From the NCBI RefSeq assembly GCF_020177375.1, contig NZ_JAIWHV010000022.1, positions 1-62,689 on the forward strand: a stretch of DNA of 62,689 bases, written 5' to 3'. Origin of the DNA: Saliphagus infecundisoli (lineage in GTDB: Archaea > Halobacteriota > Halobacteria > Halobacteriales > Natrialbaceae). Both the position numbers and the translations under genes were made by a program. Positions 24,401 to 33,689 of the stretch are shown one piece after another (within the stretch, counting starts at the first letter, position 1; the number at the start of each line of letters is the position of its first letter). The notes beneath the pieces were generated by a model that saw nothing but the letters and a program-made list of their open reading frames with translations, was not told the origin of the DNA and did no database searches.

Positions 24401-26353
24401 ATGACGAGTTCCAAGATCCTCGGTATCGACCTGGGGACGACCAACAGCGCCTTTGCGGTGATGGAGGGAGCCGACCCGGAGATCATCGTCAACTCCGAGG
24501 GCGACCGAACGACGCCGTCCGTCGTCGGCTTCACCGACGACGAGCGCCTCGTCGGGAAGCCGGCGAAGAACCAGGCGATCCAGAACCCCGAGCGGACCGT
24601 GGCCTCGATCAAGCGCCACATGGGCGAGGACGACTACACGGTCGAGGTAGACGGCGAGGAGTACACCCCCGAGGAGGTCTCGGCGATGATCCTCGGGAAG
24701 ATCAAGCGCGACGCAGAGGAGTACCTCGGCGACGACGTCGAGAAGGCCGTCATCACCGTCCCCGCCTACTTCTCGGACCGCCAGCGCCAGGCGACGAAGG
24801 ACGCCGGCGAGATCGCCGGCTTCGAGGTCGAGCGGATCATCAACGAGCCGACCGCAGCGTCGATGGCCTACGGTCTCGACGACGACTCCGACCAGACCGT
24901 CCTCGTCTACGACCTCGGTGGCGGGACGTTCGACGTCTCGGTGCTCGATCTGGGTGGCGGCGTCTACGAGGTCGTCGCGACGAACGGGGACAACGACCTC
25001 GGCGGCGACGACTGGGACCGCGCGATCATCGACTGGCTCGCCGACGAGTTCGAGTCCGATCACGGCTTCGACCTACGGGAGGACCGCCAGGCCCTCCAGC
25101 GGCTCAAGGACGCCGCCGAGGAGGCCAAGATCGAACTCTCGAGCCGAAAGGAGACGGAGATCAACCTCCCGTTCATCACCGCGACCGACCAGGGCCCGGT
25201 CCACTTGGAGAAGTCGCTGACCCGCGCGAAGTTCGAGTCGCTGACCGCCGACCTGATCGAGCGCACCGTCGGCCCGACCGAGCAGGCCCTCGAGGACGCG
25301 GGCTACGACGCCGACGACATCGACGAGGTCCTCCTCGTCGGCGGCTCGACCCGGATGCCCCAGGTCGAGGAGAAAGTCGAGGAGATCGTCGGCGAGGAGC
25401 CCCAGAAGAACGTCAACCCCGACGAGGCCGTCGCGCTGGGCGCGGCGATCCAGGGCGGCGTCCTCGGCGGCGACGTCGACGACATCGTCCTGCTCGACGT
25501 CACGCCCCTCTCGCTCGGTATCGAGGTCAAGGGCGGCCTCTTCGAGCGCCTGATCGAGAAGAACACGACGATTCCGACCGAAGAGTCGAAGGTGTTCACC
25601 ACCGCGGCGGACAACCAGACGTCGGTGCAGGTCCGGGTGTTCCAGGGCGAACGCGAGATCGCCGAGGAGAACGAACTGCTCGGCGAATTCATGCTCTCGG
25701 GGATCCCCCCCGCGCCGGCGGGCACGCCCCAGATCGAGGTCTCCTTTAACATCGACGAGAACGGGATCGTCAACGTCTCCGCCGAAGACCAGGGCACCGG
25801 CGAGAGCGAGGAGATCACGATCGAGGGCGGCGCCGGCCTTTCCGACGACGAGATCGACCGGCTCCAGGAGGAAGCTGAGGAACACGCAGAGGAAGACGAG
25901 AAGCGCCGCGAACGCATCGAGGCGCGAAACTCCGCGGAGGCGACGGCCCAGCGCGCCCGCACCCTCCTCGAGGAAAACGAGGAGGTAGACGACGAGCTCC
26001 GCGAGGAGATCGAAGCGGGTATCGAGGACCTGGAGGAGGTCGTCGAGGACGAGGACGCCTCGACGGAGGAGATCGAGGAGGCGACCGAGGAGCTCTCGAC
26101 GGAGCTCCAGGAGATCGGCAAGCAGATGTACCAGGACGCCGCGGGCGCCGAAGGTGCGGCCGGCGCCGGTGGGGCTGGCGCGGGTGCCGCCGGCGGCGCG
26201 GCGGGCGCGGGTCCGGGCGGTGCTGGCGGCCCCGGCGGTGCGGCCGGTCCGGGCGGCGCTGCCGGAGCGGGCGCAAGCGCCGAGGGCGAGGAGTACGTCG
26301 ATGCCGACTTCGAGGACGTCGAGGACGACGAGAGCGAGGACGAAGACGAGTAG
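24401..26353 (+). CDS. dnaK: Hsp70 chaperone DnaK
   Basis: 650 aa. The ATPase domain begins [16 protein letters not shown] and contains [19 protein letters not shown] and [11 protein letters not shown]. It is followed by the interdomain linker and substrate-binding domain ([25 protein letters not shown]), then a helical lid. The C-terminus is an Ala/Gly-rich stretch (about residues 584-630) followed by an acidic tail ending DESEDEDE, as in other haloarchaeal DnaK proteins. With GrpE and DnaJ it refolds client proteins. A TATA box 28 nt upstream supports the start. DnaJ is not adjacent: five genes-worth of sequence (26473-30998, four genes) intervene. Confidence 0.97.
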
Positions 26354-26472: not shown

Positions 26473-27210
26473 GTGGCACGCGAGTATCGAACCGGCGACC
26501 GGATCGAGGGATCGCGGCTCCAGCTCGACCTCTGGCATCCCGACTGCTTTACCCTCGAAATCACCGAACGGCTGCCCGGCGGATTGCTCGGCCACGGCGT
26601 CCATGCGATCGACGGGAAGGCGACCTGCCGGTTTACGGCCTACGGGCGGTCGGTCGCGGAGTTGGAGACGCTGGTCGAGGCCATCCGGGCCTCCTCCCGG
26701 ACCGACTCGGTCCGGGAGGTCGACCACCAGTACGCCACCGGCGTCGAGACGCCCGGCACCGAGACCGTCACCACGGGGCTGGTCGTCCAGTACGCCCTCG
26801 CCGACAGCATCAACGACGCGCTCGTTTCCCGGGGGTTCATCCCCGACGAGCCGGTCCGGATCACCGGCGGGCGCGAACACTGGACCGTCGTCATCCACGA
26901 GGACCGCGCGACGATCGAGGCGCGTCTCGAGGAGGTCCGCACGGAGAAGGACGCCGAGATCGGAGTCGAGTCGATGACCACCCTTCACGGTGGCGTCACG
27001 GCTGGAATGTTCCGGACCGACCGGCTTTCCGAGCGTCAGCGGGAGGTGTTCGAACTCGCCCGACGGCGCCACTACTACCGGTGGCCCCGGGCGGTGGCCG
27101 CCGCCGACCTCGCCGACGAACTGGGAATCGCCGAGGCGACCCTGCTCGAGCACCTCCGGAAGGCCGAATCCAAGCTTCTCGATCCCGACTCCCCCGAGCA
27201 CGATCGCTGA
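26473..27210 (+). CDS. Bat-type helix-turn-helix regulator (HTH_10)
   Basis: 245 aa from GTG 26473. The C-terminal domain has the bacterioopsin-activator type helix-turn-helix: LSERQREVFELARRRHYYRW followed by AADLADELGIAEATLLEHLR. The N-terminal ~170 residues form the usual two-part ligand/sensing region of such proteins without a recognisable PAS or GAF domain. These are widespread haloarchaeal transcription factors. It lies between dnaK and the amino-acid permease operon on the same strand, so it may regulate either. A second member of the family is at 54086-54763. Confidence 0.85.
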   Translation: MAREYRTGDRIEGSRLQLDLWHPDCFTLEITERLPGGLLGHGVHAIDGKATCRFTAYGRSVAELETLVEAIRASSRTDSVREVDHQYATGVETPGTETVTTGLVVQYALADSINDALVSRGFIPDEPVRITGGREHWTVVIHEDRATIEARLEEVRTEKDAEIGVESMTTLHGGVTAGMFRTDRLSERQREVFELARRRHYYRWPRAVAAADLADELGIAEATLLEHLRKAESKLLDPDSPEHDR

Positions 27211-27269
27211 CCCCCTGTGTACCTAGGGTGGGGAGTTAATCAGCCCCATGCGTTATGTTACCGCCACCC

Positions 27270-28688
27270 ATGTCTGGAACGGATACGAAGTCCGACCGGA
27301 GTCTCGCACGGGACATCGGGCCGTTCGGGGCGATCGCGACGGTCGTCGCCGGCACGCTCGGCGCCGGCCTGTTCGTCACGCTCGGGACGGCGAGTTCGAC
27401 GACCGGCCCGAGCGTGATCCTGATCATCGCGCTGTCGGGGATCATCGCGATGGCGGTCGCGATCAACTACAGCTGGCTCGCGACGATCTTTCCGGCCGCG
27501 GGCTCGACGTACTCCTACATCACCCGGGTGTTTCGCAACCGGCTGGCGGGGTTCGTCGCGACCTGGTCGCTATGGCTGGGATACATGGCGGCGGTCTCCG
27601 TGCTCGCACTCGGCTTCGGCAGCTACCTCCAGGTGTTCTACCCGGCCGTCGACGCCCGCTTTGCGGGGGTCGCGCTGATCACCGTCCTCTTCGTCGTCAA
27701 CATGCTCGGCGCCCGCCGGTACAGCATCTCACAGAACGCCATCTTCATCCTCCTGATGGTCTCGATCCTCGTGCTCGTGGTCCCCGGAACCTTCACCGTC
27801 GAGGCCGGCAACTACACTCCCTTCTTTACGGGCGGGTTCGACGGCGCGCTCGCGGCCGCCGTCCCGCTTTTCTACGCCTACATCGGGATCGCCGTCGCAG
27901 GCGAGATCGGCGCGGAGGTCAAGAACCCCTCGCGGAACCTGCCCCTGGCGATGGCTGGCGGGACGCTGATTCTCATCGTCCTCTACATGTGGACCGCGGC
28001 GGTCATCTACGGCGTCGTCGGCGACTACACCGTCCTCGCGAACTCCGACCGGCCGCTGTCGACGGCCGCCGAGACGTTCCTCCCGCTGAACGCGACCGCC
28101 GTCGTCGGCTTCGGCGGGTTGCTCGCGACCGCCTCGAGCGTCCACGCCGTAATGGCCGCGGGGATCAAGCTTCCGTACTGCTGGGCCTGGGACGAGGTGT
28201 TCTCGACGCGCTTCTCGGAGGTCAACGAGCGCTGGCGGACGCCCCACTGGTCGCTGTTCACCCTGTTTGCGGTCTCCTCGGGACTCACCTTCTGGACCGG
28301 CGGGCTCGATCAGGTGATCGCCATCGCGACGTTCAGCTACCTGATCGCCTACGCCGGGACCTCCTTTACCGCGATCTACCTCTATCTCAACCGGCCGACC
28401 CTGCGAGAGAAGGCCGCGTTCGACCCCGGCGCGTGGATCTTCGTCCCCGGCGTGCTCGGCCTCGGGGGCTGTCTTCTCTTGCTCTCGCAGGCCTACCAGG
28501 GGTCGATGACGATCTACGTCCCCTGGCTCGCGATCGGGCTCGTCGTCTTCGGGATCTACTGGTATCTGGGCCAGCGTGCCGAGACCGACGTCGACGCCAT
28601 CCTCGACACCCTTCCGGGAGTTCCGACCGACGAGTACAGCCCGCGGATCGCCGACGATCCGATCGCCGACGACGTCGCAGACGACTGA
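27270..28688 (+). CDS. APC-family amino-acid permease
   Basis: 472 aa from ATG 27270 (an in-frame ATG at 27255 would add MLPPP). The N-terminal helix contains GPFGAIATVVAGTLGAGLFV, the APC-superfamily glycine-rich first span, and about 12 spans follow. The C-terminal ~35 residues are acidic and cytoplasmic. It probably imports or exchanges an amino acid. The M20 peptidase gene starts 5 nt after its stop and the racemase 4 nt after that, so the three form one operon. Their joint role suggests uptake and processing of an unusual or acylated amino acid. Confidence 0.88.
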   Translation: MSGTDTKSDRSLARDIGPFGAIATVVAGTLGAGLFVTLGTASSTTGPSVILIIALSGIIAMAVAINYSWLATIFPAAGSTYSYITRVFRNRLAGFVATWSLWLGYMAAVSVLALGFGSYLQVFYPAVDARFAGVALITVLFVVNMLGARRYSISQNAIFILLMVSILVLVVPGTFTVEAGNYTPFFTGGFDGALAAAVPLFYAYIGIAVAGEIGAEVKNPSRNLPLAMAGGTLILIVLYMWTAAVIYGVVGDYTVLANSDRPLSTAAETFLPLNATAVVGFGGLLATASSVHAVMAAGIKLPYCWAWDEVFSTRFSEVNERWRTPHWSLFTLFAVSSGLTFWTGGLDQVIAIATFSYLIAYAGTSFTAIYLYLNRPTLREKAAFDPGAWIFVPGVLGLGGCLLLLSQAYQGSMTIYVPWLAIGLVVFGIYWYLGQRAETDVDAILDTLPGVPTDEYSPRIADDPIADDVADD

Positions 28689-28693
28689 GAGCC

Positions 28694-29908
28694 ATGTCCG
28701 ACCCATCACATTCCCCGACGACGGCGATCGACCACGACGAGACGATCGAGCTACTCCAAGAACTCGTCCGGATTCGAAGCCCCTACTTCGAGGAGGAGGA
28801 GATCGTCGAGTTCGTCCACGACTGGCTCGAGGAGGCGGGGCTCGAACCCGAGTATCAGGAGGTGAGCGAGCCCGAGATCACCGGCTTCGAGGGGCGAAAC
28901 GTCCTGGCGAGACTGGAGGGGAGCGACCCCGAGGCGCCGACGTTCCTGTTGAACGCCCACGTCGACACCGTGCAACTGGTCGAGGGCTGGGAGGAGGACC
29001 CGCTCTCGGGCCGGGTCGAGGACGGAAAGCTGTACGGCCAGGGCGCCTGCGACATGAAAGGCGGGCTCGCGGCGATCATGGTCGCCGTCCGGGAACTCGC
29101 GGATGCCGACCTCCGGGGCGACGTCGTCCTCTCGGCGGTCGTCGACGAGGAAGGTCCCTACGGACTGGGCGCCGACCGGATGATCCGGGAGGGGCTCACC
29201 GACGCCTACGACGCGGCGATCGTTACCGAGCCGGGACCGATCCTCGCCCAGTCCGAGATCGAGAACCCCGCGCTGATCCTCGGCGCCCGCGGGCGATTCC
29301 TCTACGATCTGGTCGTTCGGGGCCACGCGGCCCACGGCTCCCAGCCCGAGAAGGGGAAGAACGCCGTCGTGGACGCCGGCCGGCTGGCCGAGGCGCTCGC
29401 GGGAATGGACGTCGGAACCCATCCGCAACTCGGCGACGGCTCGGTCTGCCCGCTCTCGATCGAGGGCGGGAGCCAGACGCTCTCGGTCCCCGATCGCTGT
29501 CGGCTGCTGGTCGATCGCCACGTCGTCGTCGGCGAGGACGCGGAGAGCGTGCTGGCCGACGCAGAGCGAGTCGTCGAGGGTCTCGAACTCGACTGCGAGG
29601 TCGATGTCGGCTTCCGGGAGGCCCCCGAAGAGGACATGCGCTACGGACCGTACGTCACCGACGAGGACCATCCCCTCGTGGCGTCGCTCGCCTCGGCGAC
29701 CGAATCCGTCGCGGGTGTCGAGCCGGCGATCAGCTACTTCTCGAGCGTCGGCGACTTCAACTACTTCGGCCACCGCGCGGAGCTTCCGACCGTGATCCTC
29801 GGCCCCGACGGCGAGAACATCCACGGCACCGGCGAGTTCGTCTACACCGACGACGTGATCGAGGTCGCCGAGATCATCGTCGAAGCCGCGCGGTCGTACC
29901 TGGGGTGA
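28694..29908 (+). CDS. M20-family metallopeptidase/deacylase
   Basis: 404 aa. Metal and catalytic positions of the M20/ArgE/DapE family are visible: NAHVDTVQL (His and Asp), GQGACDMKGG (bridging Asp), VVDEEGPYG (catalytic and metal Glu), VTEPGP (Glu), and the C-terminal IHGTGEFV (His). The dimerisation domain contains RGHAAHGSQPEKGKNA. The family removes acyl groups from amino acids or cleaves dipeptides. It is the middle gene of the permease-M20-racemase operon, with 5-nt and 4-nt gaps. Substrate cannot be assigned: N-acyl amino acid or dipeptide hydrolysis are both possible. Confidence 0.88.
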   Translation: MSDPSHSPTTAIDHDETIELLQELVRIRSPYFEEEEIVEFVHDWLEEAGLEPEYQEVSEPEITGFEGRNVLARLEGSDPEAPTFLLNAHVDTVQLVEGWEEDPLSGRVEDGKLYGQGACDMKGGLAAIMVAVRELADADLRGDVVLSAVVDEEGPYGLGADRMIREGLTDAYDAAIVTEPGPILAQSEIENPALILGARGRFLYDLVVRGHAAHGSQPEKGKNAVVDAGRLAEALAGMDVGTHPQLGDGSVCPLSIEGGSQTLSVPDRCRLLVDRHVVVGEDAESVLADAERVVEGLELDCEVDVGFREAPEEDMRYGPYVTDEDHPLVASLASATESVAGVEPAISYFSSVGDFNYFGHRAELPTVILGPDGENIHGTGEFVYTDDVIEVAEIIVEAARSYLG

Positions 29909-29912
29909 GGCC

Positions 29913-30998
29913 GTGGCTCCCGTGGCCCTCGAGGGAAGCGGAGAGGCGGAGTTCCCAGTCCTGGGAATCGATTCGGGAGCCATCGAGCGAAACGCCGCAC
30001 GGATCGTCGATCGGGTCGATCCCGACGTCGTCGGCGTGACGAAAGGGGTCTGTGGCGATCCCCGGGTCGCGCGTGCGATGCTGGCCGGCGGCGCCGCCGG
30101 GATCGCCGACTCCCGGGTAGCGAATGTCGTGGGGCTCCGCGAGGCCCTCCAGTGTGACCTCCTCTTGCTCCGGGCGCCGATGGGCACCGAGTGCTCGGCG
30201 GTGGTCGAGAACGCGACGTGGTCGATGGAGTCCGAGGCCGCGACCCTGAGAGCGCTCTCGGCGATTTCGACCGACAGGGAGGTCGTCCACCGGGTACTGG
30301 TGGCGATTGACGTCGGCGACCGCCGGGAGGGCGTTCTGCCCGAGGAGTTCGACGAACTTCTCGAGGCCGCAATCGACCTCCCGGGGGTCGAGGTCTCGGG
30401 GCTAGCGACCCACGTCGGCTCGTTCGGTGGCGTCGTCCCGACGCGGGAGAACGTCGGGCGACTGGTCGAACTCGTCGAGCGAGCGGAGGAGCGCCTCGGC
30501 CGGCGCCTGGCGGTCGTCTCTGGCGGGAGCACGAACGCGCTCGGGCTTGCTTTCGAGGGCGACCTGCCCGGGCAGGTGACACAGCTTCGAGTCGGCGAGG
30601 GGATCCTGCTCGGGACCGATCCGGTCACCGGCGAGGCGATTCCGGGGCTCGAGACCGATGCGATCGAACTGGTCGCGGAGGTCATCGAGTGCAAGCGAAA
30701 GCCCTCCCTCCCGGAGGGAGAGCGGAGCCGTGACGCGTTCGGTCAGGAGCCCGCGTTCGCGGACCGCGGGGTTCGACGACGGGCGATCCTCGCGCTTGGG
30801 CGCCTGGACTGTGCGATCGGAGAGCTTACCCCGCTCCGGGAGGGCGTCGAGGTGATCGGGGCGAGCAGCGATCACACGGTGGTGGACGTCGCCGACGCGG
30901 GATCGGTCGAGGTCGGCGATACGCTCGCCTTTCGGCCGGGATACGCCGCGCTCGCGCGTGCCGCGGCCGCGCCGTCCGTCGCGGTTGCGGTCGGATAA
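29913..30998 (+). CDS. Ornithine/alanine racemase-family PLP enzyme
   Basis: 361 aa from GTG 29913. The alanine-racemase N-terminal barrel is indicated by DVVGVTKGVCGDPRVARAML with the PLP-binding Lys in VTKGV, by VLVAIDVGDRREGVLPEE and by SGGSTNALGL. DVGDRREG and the KGVCG form are typical of the ornithine racemase (Orr-like) branch rather than Alr. It would interconvert L- and D-forms of ornithine or a similar amino acid in the cytoplasm. It ends the permease-M20-racemase operon. Archaea generally lack peptidoglycan, so a D-amino acid here implies catabolism or another use. Confidence 0.8.
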   Translation: MAPVALEGSGEAEFPVLGIDSGAIERNAARIVDRVDPDVVGVTKGVCGDPRVARAMLAGGAAGIADSRVANVVGLREALQCDLLLLRAPMGTECSAVVENATWSMESEAATLRALSAISTDREVVHRVLVAIDVGDRREGVLPEEFDELLEAAIDLPGVEVSGLATHVGSFGGVVPTRENVGRLVELVERAEERLGRRLAVVSGGSTNALGLAFEGDLPGQVTQLRVGEGILLGTDPVTGEAIPGLETDAIELVAEVIECKRKPSLPEGERSRDAFGQEPAFADRGVRRRAILALGRLDCAIGELTPLREGVEVIGASSDHTVVDVADAGSVEVGDTLAFRPGYAALARAAAAPSVAVAVG

Positions 30999-31059: not shown

Positions 31060-32241
31060 ATGAGCGAGGACTTCTACGATGTGCTCGGCGTGGGGTCGAA
31101 CGCCTCCGCCGACGAGATCAAGCAGGCCTACCGGGAGAAGGCCACGGAGTACCATCCCGACGTCAGCGACGACCCCGACGCAGAGGAGAAGTTCAAGAAG
31201 ATCCAGAAGGCCAAACAGGTCCTGACCGACGACGAGAAGCGGGAGGCCTACGACCGGATGGGCCACGACCGCTACCAGCAGGCCGAGAAACACGGCTACG
31301 ACGCCGGCGACGCCGGCGGCGCCGGCGGTGGCGGGATGGGCGGGGACCCCTTCGGCGGGATGGGCGGTGGCGCCGGCGGGATGGGCGGCGGCCTCGGGGA
31401 CATCTTCGAGCAGGTCTTCGGCGGCGGCGGTGGCGGGCGCGGACGGGGGCGAAGCCGCCCCCAGAAGGGCCAGGACCTCCGGACCGGCCTCGAGATCGAC
31501 CTCGAGGAGGCGTACGCGGGGGCCGAAAAGGAGTTCTCCATCGCTCGGCCCGAGGAGTGTCCCGACTGTGGCGGGAGCGGCCACCCCCCCAGTGCCGACG
31601 TCCAGACCTGCCCGGAGTGTCAGGGCCAGGGCCAAGTCACGCAGGTCCAGCAGACGCCCCTGGGTCGGGTCCAGCAGACGACGGCCTGTCCCCGGTGTGA
31701 CGGCGAGGGAAGCCTCTACAGCGAGACCTGCGGGGAGTGTCGCGGCGAGGGCTACGTCCAGGGCGAGGCGACCCTTTCGGTCGAGGTCCCCGAGGGGATC
31801 CGCGACGGCCAGACTCTCAGGATGGACCGCGAGGGCGCGCCGAGCCCCGAGGGCGGTCCTCGTGGGGATCTCCTGATCGACGTCTCGGTCCGCGAACACG
31901 ACGAGTTCGAGCGCGAGGGCGACGACCTACGCTACCGGATGCCCGTCTCCTTCCCGCAGGCGACCTTCGGCGACACGGTCCAGGTCCCCACCCTCGAGGG
32001 CGACGTCGAGTTCGAGATCCCCGAGGCGACCCAGAGCGGCGAGACCTTCCGGTTACAGGGCAAGGGGATGCCCCGCCTCCAGCGCCGGGGCGAGGGCGAC
32101 CTCTACGTCCAGGTCCAGATCGTCACCCCCGACTCGATGAACGCCGAACAGCGCGAGGCTCTCGAGAACTTCGCCGAGGCCGGCGGCGAGGAGATCGACG
32201 TCAACGAGGGCTTCTTCGAGAAGATCAAGCGGTCCTTCTGA
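31060..32241 (+). CDS. dnaJ: Chaperone DnaJ (Hsp40)
   Basis: 393 aa from ATG 31060. The J domain (residues 1-70) contains [19 protein letters not shown] with the essential HPD. A Gly/Met-rich G/F-like segment follows (residues about 84-125), then four zinc repeats: [24 protein letters not shown] and CGECRGEG, and the C-terminal substrate domains. This is a full type I DnaJ. It activates DnaK ATP hydrolysis and delivers clients. It is separated from dnaK by a regulator and a three-gene amino-acid operon, so it probably has its own promoter. Confidence 0.97.
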
Positions 32242-32889: not shown

Positions 32890-32940
32890 CCTCCCGTTCG
32901 ACCGGCGGCCTTTTGCTCGCCGCGTCGGAAGCTCCCTCCA

Positions 32941-33689
32941 TGACCGAGACGGCCGGAGAGCTGTTCGTCCGCGAGCGCCGGAGCGAGGCGCCCGCGCTCG
33001 TCGATCGCGAGGGCCGGACCTACGACTACGACTGGCTGTTCACCTCGACGTGGAAGGCGGGGAACTTCCTCCGGCACTCCGGCGTCCGCGAGGGAGTGAG
33101 CGTCGGCGTCGTCGGCGACGGCCCCATCGCCCTGCTCGCGGGGTTCGGGACCGCGCTGCTCTCGAGCACCGTGCGGTTCGCCCCTCCGGAAAAACTCGGC
33201 GAGGAGGTCCGGGCCCTGGTCGCGCCCGTCGCCACTCTTGAGGAGTACGACCTTCCACGGGGCGCCCAGCGGGTCGGTTACGGCGGCGAGGCCGACGACC
33301 CCGCGGTCCACGACCTCGAGGCCGGCCTCTGGAGCGAGAACCCCTCGTTTCCCCCCGTCGATCTCGACCCCGACACCCCCATGGTGGCCGACGGCGGGGC
33401 GACCTACAGCCACCGCGACCTGTTCGAGACGGCCCACGCGGTCGCCGCCGAACACGAGTTCGGAGAGGGGACGCGGGTCCGCCCGGCCGGCGGGTTCGCC
33501 GATCCCCGCGCGTTCGCGGCAGGCGTTCTCGCGCCGCTCGTGGCGGGGGGAACGGTCGTCCTCGACGGCGAGGCCGACGTCGCGATCGGTGGTGGAGACG
33601 ACGAGGATGGGCCGGATCGGGTTTCGCTCTCGAGAATCGAACTCGACTCGTGGCTCAGCGGTTCTCGAGGGAATCCGTACTGTCGGTAG
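32941..33689 (+). CDS. Degenerate, half-length AMP-binding (acyl-CoA synthetase-like) protein
   Basis: 248 aa. The first ~120 residues follow the N-terminal domain of acyl-CoA synthetases (ALVDREGRTYDYDWLFTSTW, then VGVVGDGPIALLAGFGTALL). The position of the ATP-binding motif (normally SGTTGxPKG) reads VADGGATYSHRDLFETAH, so the Ser/Thr/Gly/Lys residues needed for adenylation are absent. The rest of the enzyme is missing, although the reading frame looks intact and haloarchaeal in composition. It is therefore probably not an adenylating enzyme, but could be a binding or regulatory protein. The last 35 nt overlap the convergent MATE gene. Confidence 0.65.

Follow-up and report, generated by a model that had tools for sequence, protein, structure and literature searches.

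We analysed positions 1 to 62,689 of contig NZ_JAIWHV010000022.1 (Saliphagus infecundisoli, assembly GCF_020177375.1), a stretch of 62,689 nucleotides that we refer to as the window. Four genes on its forward strand lie between dnaK (24401-26353) and dnaJ (start at 31060). They encode a regulator of the HTH_10 (Bat) type (26473-27210, GTG start), an APC-superfamily amino-acid permease (27255-28688), an M20 metallo-hydrolase of the ArgE/DapE type (28694-29908, with its ATG start at 28694), and an Orr-family PLP-dependent enzyme with an alanine-racemase fold (29913-30998, GTG start). A conserved intergenic motif of 20 nt, CCCTGTGTACCTAGGGTGGG (27213-27232, forward strand), lies between the regulator and permease genes. 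The gap between permease and M20 genes is 5 nt (28689-28693) and that between M20 and racemase genes 4 nt (29909-29912), which bears out an earlier sequence-only reading that had taken these three genes as one unit with 4- to 5-nt gaps. That reading had also located the unit inside a DnaK-DnaJ cluster, and this is correct for the S. infecundisoli genome. Among 29 relatives examined, the end of dnaK was at most 1.5 kb from dnaJ in 20, and none of the 29 had the regulator, permease, M20 or racemase gene in the dnaK-dnaJ flank. Since relatives carry the cassette elsewhere, the position was rejected as a functional link; the placement is an insertion, with no functional tie to dnaK and dnaJ. Flanking repeats were rejected as marks of this insertion, only short imperfect ones being present, and so was carriage of the M20 gene on plasmids (no match at 1e-60).

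The permease scored 125.1 bits against PF13520 (cut-off 27), in agreement with the APC permease that had been claimed, and its top NCBIfam model was TIGR00909 (200 of 556.8 bits). Its start may lie at an in-frame ATG at 27270, which agrees better with the sequences of relatives than 27255. In an alignment with the cationic-amino-acid transporter GkApcT, E115, K191 and D237 of that transporter correspond to G, a hydrophobic residue and A in the permease. Without these residues it may not transport free cationic amino acids, an observation that counts against a basic amino acid as substrate.

The M20 protein exceeded the cut-offs of PF01546 (110.9 bits, cut-off 24.6) and PF07687 (47.6 bits). Its top NCBIfam model, the ArgE/DapE deacylase TIGR01910, was matched over profile positions 1-373 of 373 with 206.8 bits, 10.8 bits short of the cut-off of 217.6. 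Residues H89, D91, D120, E152, E153, E179 and H377, which we take to be the metal-ligand positions, were invariant in 19 of 19 homologues, and with every ligand position present the earlier description as a metallo-deacylase held. The structural model gave Z scores of 40.3 with 3pfo and 40.1 with DapE 5vo3, and it matched carnosinase and tripeptidase structures as well. From sequence and model, the M20 protein is probably an N-acyl-amino-acid deacylase. ArgE/DapE enzymes, such as acetylornithine deacetylase, act on N-acyl diamino acids. The M20 protein is like them in that they are its best family, in its retained metal ligands and in its fold (Z of about 40 to DapE and to a putative acetylornithine deacetylase), but it scores below the curated cut-off and is partnered by a permease and a racemase instead of biosynthetic genes.

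The racemase passed the PF01168 cut-off with 92.4 bits. Its top NCBIfam model was ornithine racemase Orr, NF040742 (311.1 bits, below the cut-off of 480), whereas alanine racemase TIGR00492 gave 25.7 bits, far under its cut-off of 168; the earlier assignment as Orr-like was thus sound, and the protein does not score as an alanine racemase. K44 and Y344 were invariant in 19 of 19 homologues. In the structural model (pLDDT 91.7) the top match was alanine racemase 5fag (Z 29.8, rmsd 3.0, 332 residues), so that the PLP lysine (K44) and the alanine-racemase fold, both expected of Orr, are present. Z was 28 with D-threonine aldolases and 26.9 with D-serine dehydratase, and that the fold taken alone also fits these enzymes speaks against the reading that we come to favour. 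Sequence and model together make the protein a probable amino-acid racemase. The other PF01168 match in the genome looked diaminopimelate-decarboxylase-like by eye and was rejected as a second racemase.

We then placed the genes of the unit in relatives by tblastn and distinguished loci with the order regulator-permease-M20 (type A, n=12) from those in which a racemase-M20 pair has other partners (type B, n=5). Other genera show the same gene order, which is therefore not due to chance. All 12 type A loci contained the regulator-permease-M20 core, and 5 of them had the racemase in addition. Since the racemase is optional, import and deacylation would be independent of it. The Orr-family racemase is rare in haloarchaea (8 of 125 genomes of the family; 9 of 391 in the class), and in each of the 10 haloarchaeal loci found it directly followed the same M20 gene, with the same regulator upstream. 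In type B loci the pair is accompanied by a class III aminotransferase, a D-amino-acid-dehydrogenase-like flavoprotein and a putative ABC transporter. A dehydrogenase of this kind was rejected for S. infecundisoli itself, where the best match reached 30% identity and 43.5 bits. Judging from dN/dS values of 0.08-0.45, all four genes are under purifying selection. The racemase is the fastest-evolving of them (0.32-0.45), and this, like its absence from 7 of 12 type A loci, runs against our favoured reading.

The regulator scored above the cut-off for the HTH_10 DNA-binding domain PF04967 (60.1 bits), and no other Pfam domain was matched up to an E value of 0.001. The sensory part of Bat consists of PAS/GAF domains; of the Bat-type regulator claimed earlier, the DNA-binding domain is hence supported, while the sensory domains had no Pfam match. 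All 17 loci (12 of type A, 5 of type B) had an orthologue of the regulator ahead of the unit, and the protein is likely the unit's dedicated regulator. The intergenic motif was conserved in 11 of the 12 type A loci, in which the C of CTAGGG stands 42-48 nt ahead of the permease start; conservation was 1.66 bits per column, compared with 0.33 and 0.44 in the flanks. Across 125 genomes the motif had 10 matches, every one in a regulator-permease gap, against 12 for a reversed-motif control; because this count does not exceed chance, it is the placement that carries weight. From its sequence conservation, the motif is likely an operator or upstream activator site beside the permease promoter. A genome-wide regulon was rejected: with up to 2 mismatches, the S. 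infecundisoli genome had 26 matches and the reversed control 56, and we accordingly credit the local site alone.

Bacterial homologues of the racemase occur in several contexts. The L017 homologue, 43% identical to the window racemase, sits in a D-ornithine aminomutase operon, and since it scores 315 bits against the Orr model, the cut-off of 480 is strict. The window racemase shares with the clostridial Orr of ornithine degradation (NF040742) its family, the invariant lysine and tyrosine and this degree of identity to a homologue within an ornithine-degradation operon, but it is partnered by an M20 hydrolase and scores below 480. A Stickland-type ornithine route was rejected, as no D-ornithine 4,5-aminomutase OraE above the cut-off was found in the S. 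infecundisoli genome (best match 20.6 bits, cut-off 800). In Salmonella, a homologue near argT-hisJQMP follows an APC permease and a decarboxylase-like gene with a full-length match to a solved D-ornithine/D-lysine decarboxylase (1076.8 bits). Here too an Orr-family racemase adjoins an APC permease, but the decarboxylase takes the place of M20, the regulator is different, and identities are low (racemase 34%, permeases about 20%). Homologues on Roseateles and Shinella plasmids (43-44% identical) neighbour 5-guanidino-2-oxopentanoate decarboxylase, D-amino-acid dehydrogenase (471.8 bits in the Roseateles scan, cut-off 383) and RidA. These loci resemble haloarchaeal type B in combining the racemase with the dehydrogenase and in having an N-acyl-hydrolase-like C45 gene, whereas the window cassette has no dehydrogenase and C45 is unrelated to M20. 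In one search set, 8 of 10 bacterial homologues paired with DUF1611/DgcN-like genes; this pairing, like the scores below the Orr and ArgE/DapE cut-offs, tells against the reading set out next.

We tentatively interpret the cassette, with slightly less than even confidence, as a means to salvage basic amino acids that are N-acylated, in the D form or both. The HTH_10 protein would bind the motif upstream of the permease promoter and turn on a permease-M20-racemase transcript; the permease would bring in an amino acid, either free or N-acylated; and the M20 enzyme, by analogy with ArgE/DapE, would remove the acyl group from the alpha-nitrogen to yield the free amino acid. The Orr-family racemase would turn the D form into the L form and back, giving both access to metabolism. 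The likeliest substrates would be ornithine, lysine or arginine, free or N-acylated, basic amino acids being favoured over alanine because of the family scores and the bacterial gene neighbourhoods. The core would function without the racemase, which may broaden the substrate range or steer the product to the D form, and in type B the D-amino-acid-dehydrogenase-like flavoprotein and the aminotransferase would complete the pathway.

The same cassette logic might instead serve amino acids that are acidic or neutral, chiefly D-glutamate, with the M20 enzyme deacetylating N-acetyl-L-glutamate or a similar compound and the racemase offering a PLP-dependent substitute for the DgcN-DgcA route, a D-glutamate pathway reportedly described by Yu in 2023 for marine bacteria and halophilic archaea. 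That pathway likewise uses a D-amino acid via N-acyl chemistry, and dgcN-like genes occur beside bacterial Orr-like genes, in the 8 of 10 homologues coupled to DUF1611, and near one haloarchaeal relative (locus L084, genome G282). There, a regulator-permease-M20 unit that lacks the racemase is divergent from two genes, one DUF1611/DgcN-like (203 bits) and the other of the enolase superfamily (281 bits to L-Ala-D/L-Glu epimerase, 164 bits to DgcA), an arrangement that points to D-glutamate rather than a basic amino acid. It was seen in a single one of the 12 type A loci, however, and the Orr-family contexts with assigned chemistry concern basic amino acids. The window cassette differs in having neither dgcN nor dgcA (the L084 proteins had no match in the 62.7-kb window) and a racemase of the PLP rather than the enolase type. 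DgcN homologues, all below the curated cut-off, occur in 120 of 125 family genomes, with two in S. infecundisoli; being near universal, the route needs no replacement, and we consider a D-glutamate cassette unlikely. Slightly less probable is a cassette that salvages small peptides, with the M20 protein acting as a dipeptidase or carboxypeptidase; some of the peptides would carry D residues from bacterial walls, which the racemase would convert once freed. The M20 family includes many peptidases, the model matched carnosinase and tripeptidase structures, and the TIGR01910 cut-off was missed by about 11 bits, but ArgE/DapE deacylases come out best in both sequence and structure, and peptide import is unusual for an APC permease.

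A further, improbable reading has no common pathway: permease and M20 would function together, and the racemase would be a passenger, weakly selected and loosely attached to them. Its absence from 7 type A loci and its fast evolution would fit, as would the G295/G304 pair, where racemase dS (0.124), far below that of the neighbours (0.373-0.562), suggests a separate exchange of the racemase gene; yet it directly follows M20 in all 10 haloarchaeal occurrences across both types, dN/dS is well under 1, and only 3-4 nt separate it from M20 in the type A loci inspected. Very improbable, finally, is another D-amino-acid enzyme of the alanine-racemase fold (a lyase, aldolase or dehydratase), since despite Z scores for D-threonine aldolases and D-serine dehydratase near that of alanine racemase, the sequence groups with Orr, including the member in the D-ornithine aminomutase operon, and K44 and Y344 are invariant across the family.

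Salvage of basic amino acids thus remains our preferred reading. Each enzyme type is already known, and the combination appears to be undescribed in archaea within the open-licence PMC literature searched: no paper linking D-ornithine with haloarchaea was found there, nor, among the matches listed for alanine racemase and going by titles and the starts of abstracts, one on a haloarchaeal racemase. To our knowledge archaea have no murein, and dedicated D-amino-acid racemases are therefore unexpected in them. Possible, but doubtful, is the wider view of a mobile haloarchaeal cassette for N-acylated and D-configured basic amino acids, regulated from a single promoter and with the Orr-type racemase as an exchangeable module. 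If true, an Orr-type racemase pathway would thereby be described in archaea for the first time, and HTH_10 regulators would gain a new role. Bacterial debris probably supplies brines with D- and N-acyl-amino acids, and a conserved cassette that carries both regulator and operator would offer a concrete route for their salvage. For the HTH_10 family, which is large but little studied, it would also provide a regulator together with its motif.

The sequence-only reading had claimed three genes with short gaps plus an adjacent regulator, and genes and spacing were borne out: an HTH_10 regulator (26473-27210), an APC-superfamily permease (27255-28688), an M20 hydrolase of the ArgE/DapE type (28694-29908) and a probable PLP-dependent racemase of the Orr (ornithine racemase) family (29913-30998). 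Gaps of 5 and 4 nt precede M20 (ATG 28694) and the racemase (GTG 29913), respectively. Between the end of the regulator and the permease lie 44 nt if the listed start is used, or 59 nt with an alternative ATG (27270), which is favoured by relatives. The cassette is flanked by dnaK upstream and by dnaJ, which starts at 31060. A 258-aa ORF at 32913-33689 resembles, by eye, the N-terminal part of an AMP-binding acyl-CoA synthetase; it had no NCBIfam match at 1e-15 and may be truncated or diverged.

Close M20 homologues (E up to 1e-100) were found at 18 places in 17 of the 125 genomes of the family Natrialbaceae, and the gene neighbourhoods of M20 loci were determined by tblastn. In type A (regulator-permease-M20; 12 loci), the racemase follows M20 at five loci (the window, G295, G304, G299 and G300) and is missing from seven. 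The proposal of a unit that imports and processes acylated or D-configured amino acids was right in kind, but too strong in making the racemase an integral step. At one racemase-less type A locus (L084, on G282:C1), a DUF1611/DgcN-like gene is divergent from the regulator-permease-M20 cassette, accompanied by an enolase-superfamily gene that is L-Ala-D/L-Glu epimerase or DgcA-like (the two genes at L084:3674-5802). Type B comprises five loci, three within the family (G285, G273, G297) and two outside (G165, G407), in which a regulator is followed by M20 and the racemase. A class III aminotransferase precedes M20 in three of these, and a D-amino-acid-dehydrogenase-like flavoprotein follows the racemase in four, the G165 locus being cut by a contig end; putative spermidine/putrescine-type ABC transporter genes, recognized by eye, adjoin those of G285, G297 and G407. 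Type C combines M20 with two class III aminotransferases, without regulator or racemase, at three loci (a second copy in G295, and G335 and G347). These loci (L085, L087, L088) possibly serve a related diamine or amino-acid pathway; two (L085 and L087) also hold a flavoprotein, a family scan found an aldehyde dehydrogenase in L085, and an ABC transporter and an Lrp-like regulator were seen by eye.

Few haloarchaea have the racemase, and where it occurs it accompanies M20. It was detected in 4/293 genomes of the order (one query), 8/125 of the family (profile search) and 9/391 of the class (wider profile); these samples overlap, and their union is 10 loci, in all of which the racemase lies directly 3' of M20 with the regulator upstream of the unit. 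Phylogenetically, the racemases of haloarchaea cluster together (89/92), and types A and B each form a group within that cluster (100/99 for both). Type A M20 proteins, with or without racemase, separate from those of type B; several forks of the tree are weak. An ancestral M20-racemase pair followed by losses would explain this most simply. Separate exchange of the racemase gene is possible for G295 and G304 (L074:9202-10245, L076:9181-10233), because dS between the two is much lower for it (0.124) than for three neighbouring genes (0.373-0.562). Across four pairs, all four genes were under purifying selection, weakest on the racemase (dN/dS 0.32-0.45, versus 0.08-0.27 for the others).

The regulator-permease gap holds a conserved motif, CCCTGTGTACCTAGGGTGGG (27213-27232), that is kept in 11 of the 12 type A loci, with three mismatches to the scanned core in G344, and absent in G282. 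Information per column was 1.66 bits in the motif and 0.33 and 0.44 in its flanks, and its CTAGGG begins 42-48 nt 5' of a permease start codon. Scanning 125 genomes with up to two mismatches gave 10 copies, each in a different genome and all in this gap; since the reversed motif yielded 12 matches, the evidence lies in placement, not number. The motif was not found in the scanned stretches of type B or C loci (at least four mismatches). AT-rich letters 3' of it, around -30 from the permease start, could be the TATA box from which a leaderless archaeal transcript starts; the motif would then be a putative upstream activator site.

Seven M20 positions, which we take to be catalytic and metal-binding, were invariant in 19/19 homologues, and the M20 model (pLDDT 84.1) matched 3pfo (Z 40.3, rmsd 2.8, 384 residues) and product-bound DapE, 5vo3 (Z 40.1, rmsd 2.8, 369 residues). 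The racemase model (pLDDT 91.7) matched alanine racemase 5fag (Z 29.8, rmsd 3.0, 332 residues), but the fold does not settle the reaction because D-threonine aldolase and D-serine dehydratase rank close behind. K44 and Y344 were invariant in 19/19 racemase homologues, including the bacterial enzyme L017. The host genome yielded neither another Orr or alanine racemase nor a close counterpart of the type B flavoprotein, and no D-ornithine aminomutase component OraE above cut-off; its other PF01168 match reads as diaminopimelate-decarboxylase-like. It does hold two DgcN homologues, and the type B aminotransferase has a homologue there (65%) that stands alone (G000:C11:594497-595819).

Ornithine, lysine or arginine featured in all bacterial racemase contexts with assigned chemistry. 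Among ten bacterial homologues, L017 lies within an ord-ortA-ortB-oraE operon, and L021 has uninformative neighbours by eye. Neighbourhoods were examined in six of 18 plasmid records. On a Salmonella plasmid, the racemase is preceded by an APC permease and a full-length match to a solved D-ornithine/D-lysine decarboxylase. This Salmonella enzyme is described in PMC13294871 as active on D-ornithine and D-lysine, and slowly on D-arginine. Two plasmids (Roseateles, Shinella) carry 5-guanidino-2-oxopentanoate decarboxylase, aldehyde dehydrogenase, a C45 gene, D-amino-acid dehydrogenase and RidA; at 595 aa, the racemase of this putative D-arginine locus (L126:5992-7776) is greatly extended at its C-terminus. 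A Ruegeria plasmid has a DUF1611 gene, and of the remaining two records one had uninformative neighbours and one was unannotated.

Three observations count against basic amino acids: the permease lacks three charged residues of the cationic-amino-acid transporter GkApcT, a dgcN/dgcA-like pair adjoins the racemase-less G282 cassette, and the bacterial homologues have DUF1611/DgcN partners, a DUF1611 gene being upstream of the racemase in 8/10 (genome scan). This recurring, directly adjacent pair (L015, L016, L018-L020, L022-L024) occurs in cyanobacteria, Myxococcota and one alphaproteobacterium. Marine bacteria and halophilic archaea reportedly use D-glutamate. Passages of PMC12363236 and PMC10845958 cite such use (Yu 2023), and those of PMC7857480 held no additional Orr data. 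Our search of open-licence PMC papers found none on the regulator-permease-M20-racemase cassette. Altogether, the cassette is best placed as a variant among amino-acid salvage modules of known kinds; its likeliest, though putative, substrates are basic amino acids.
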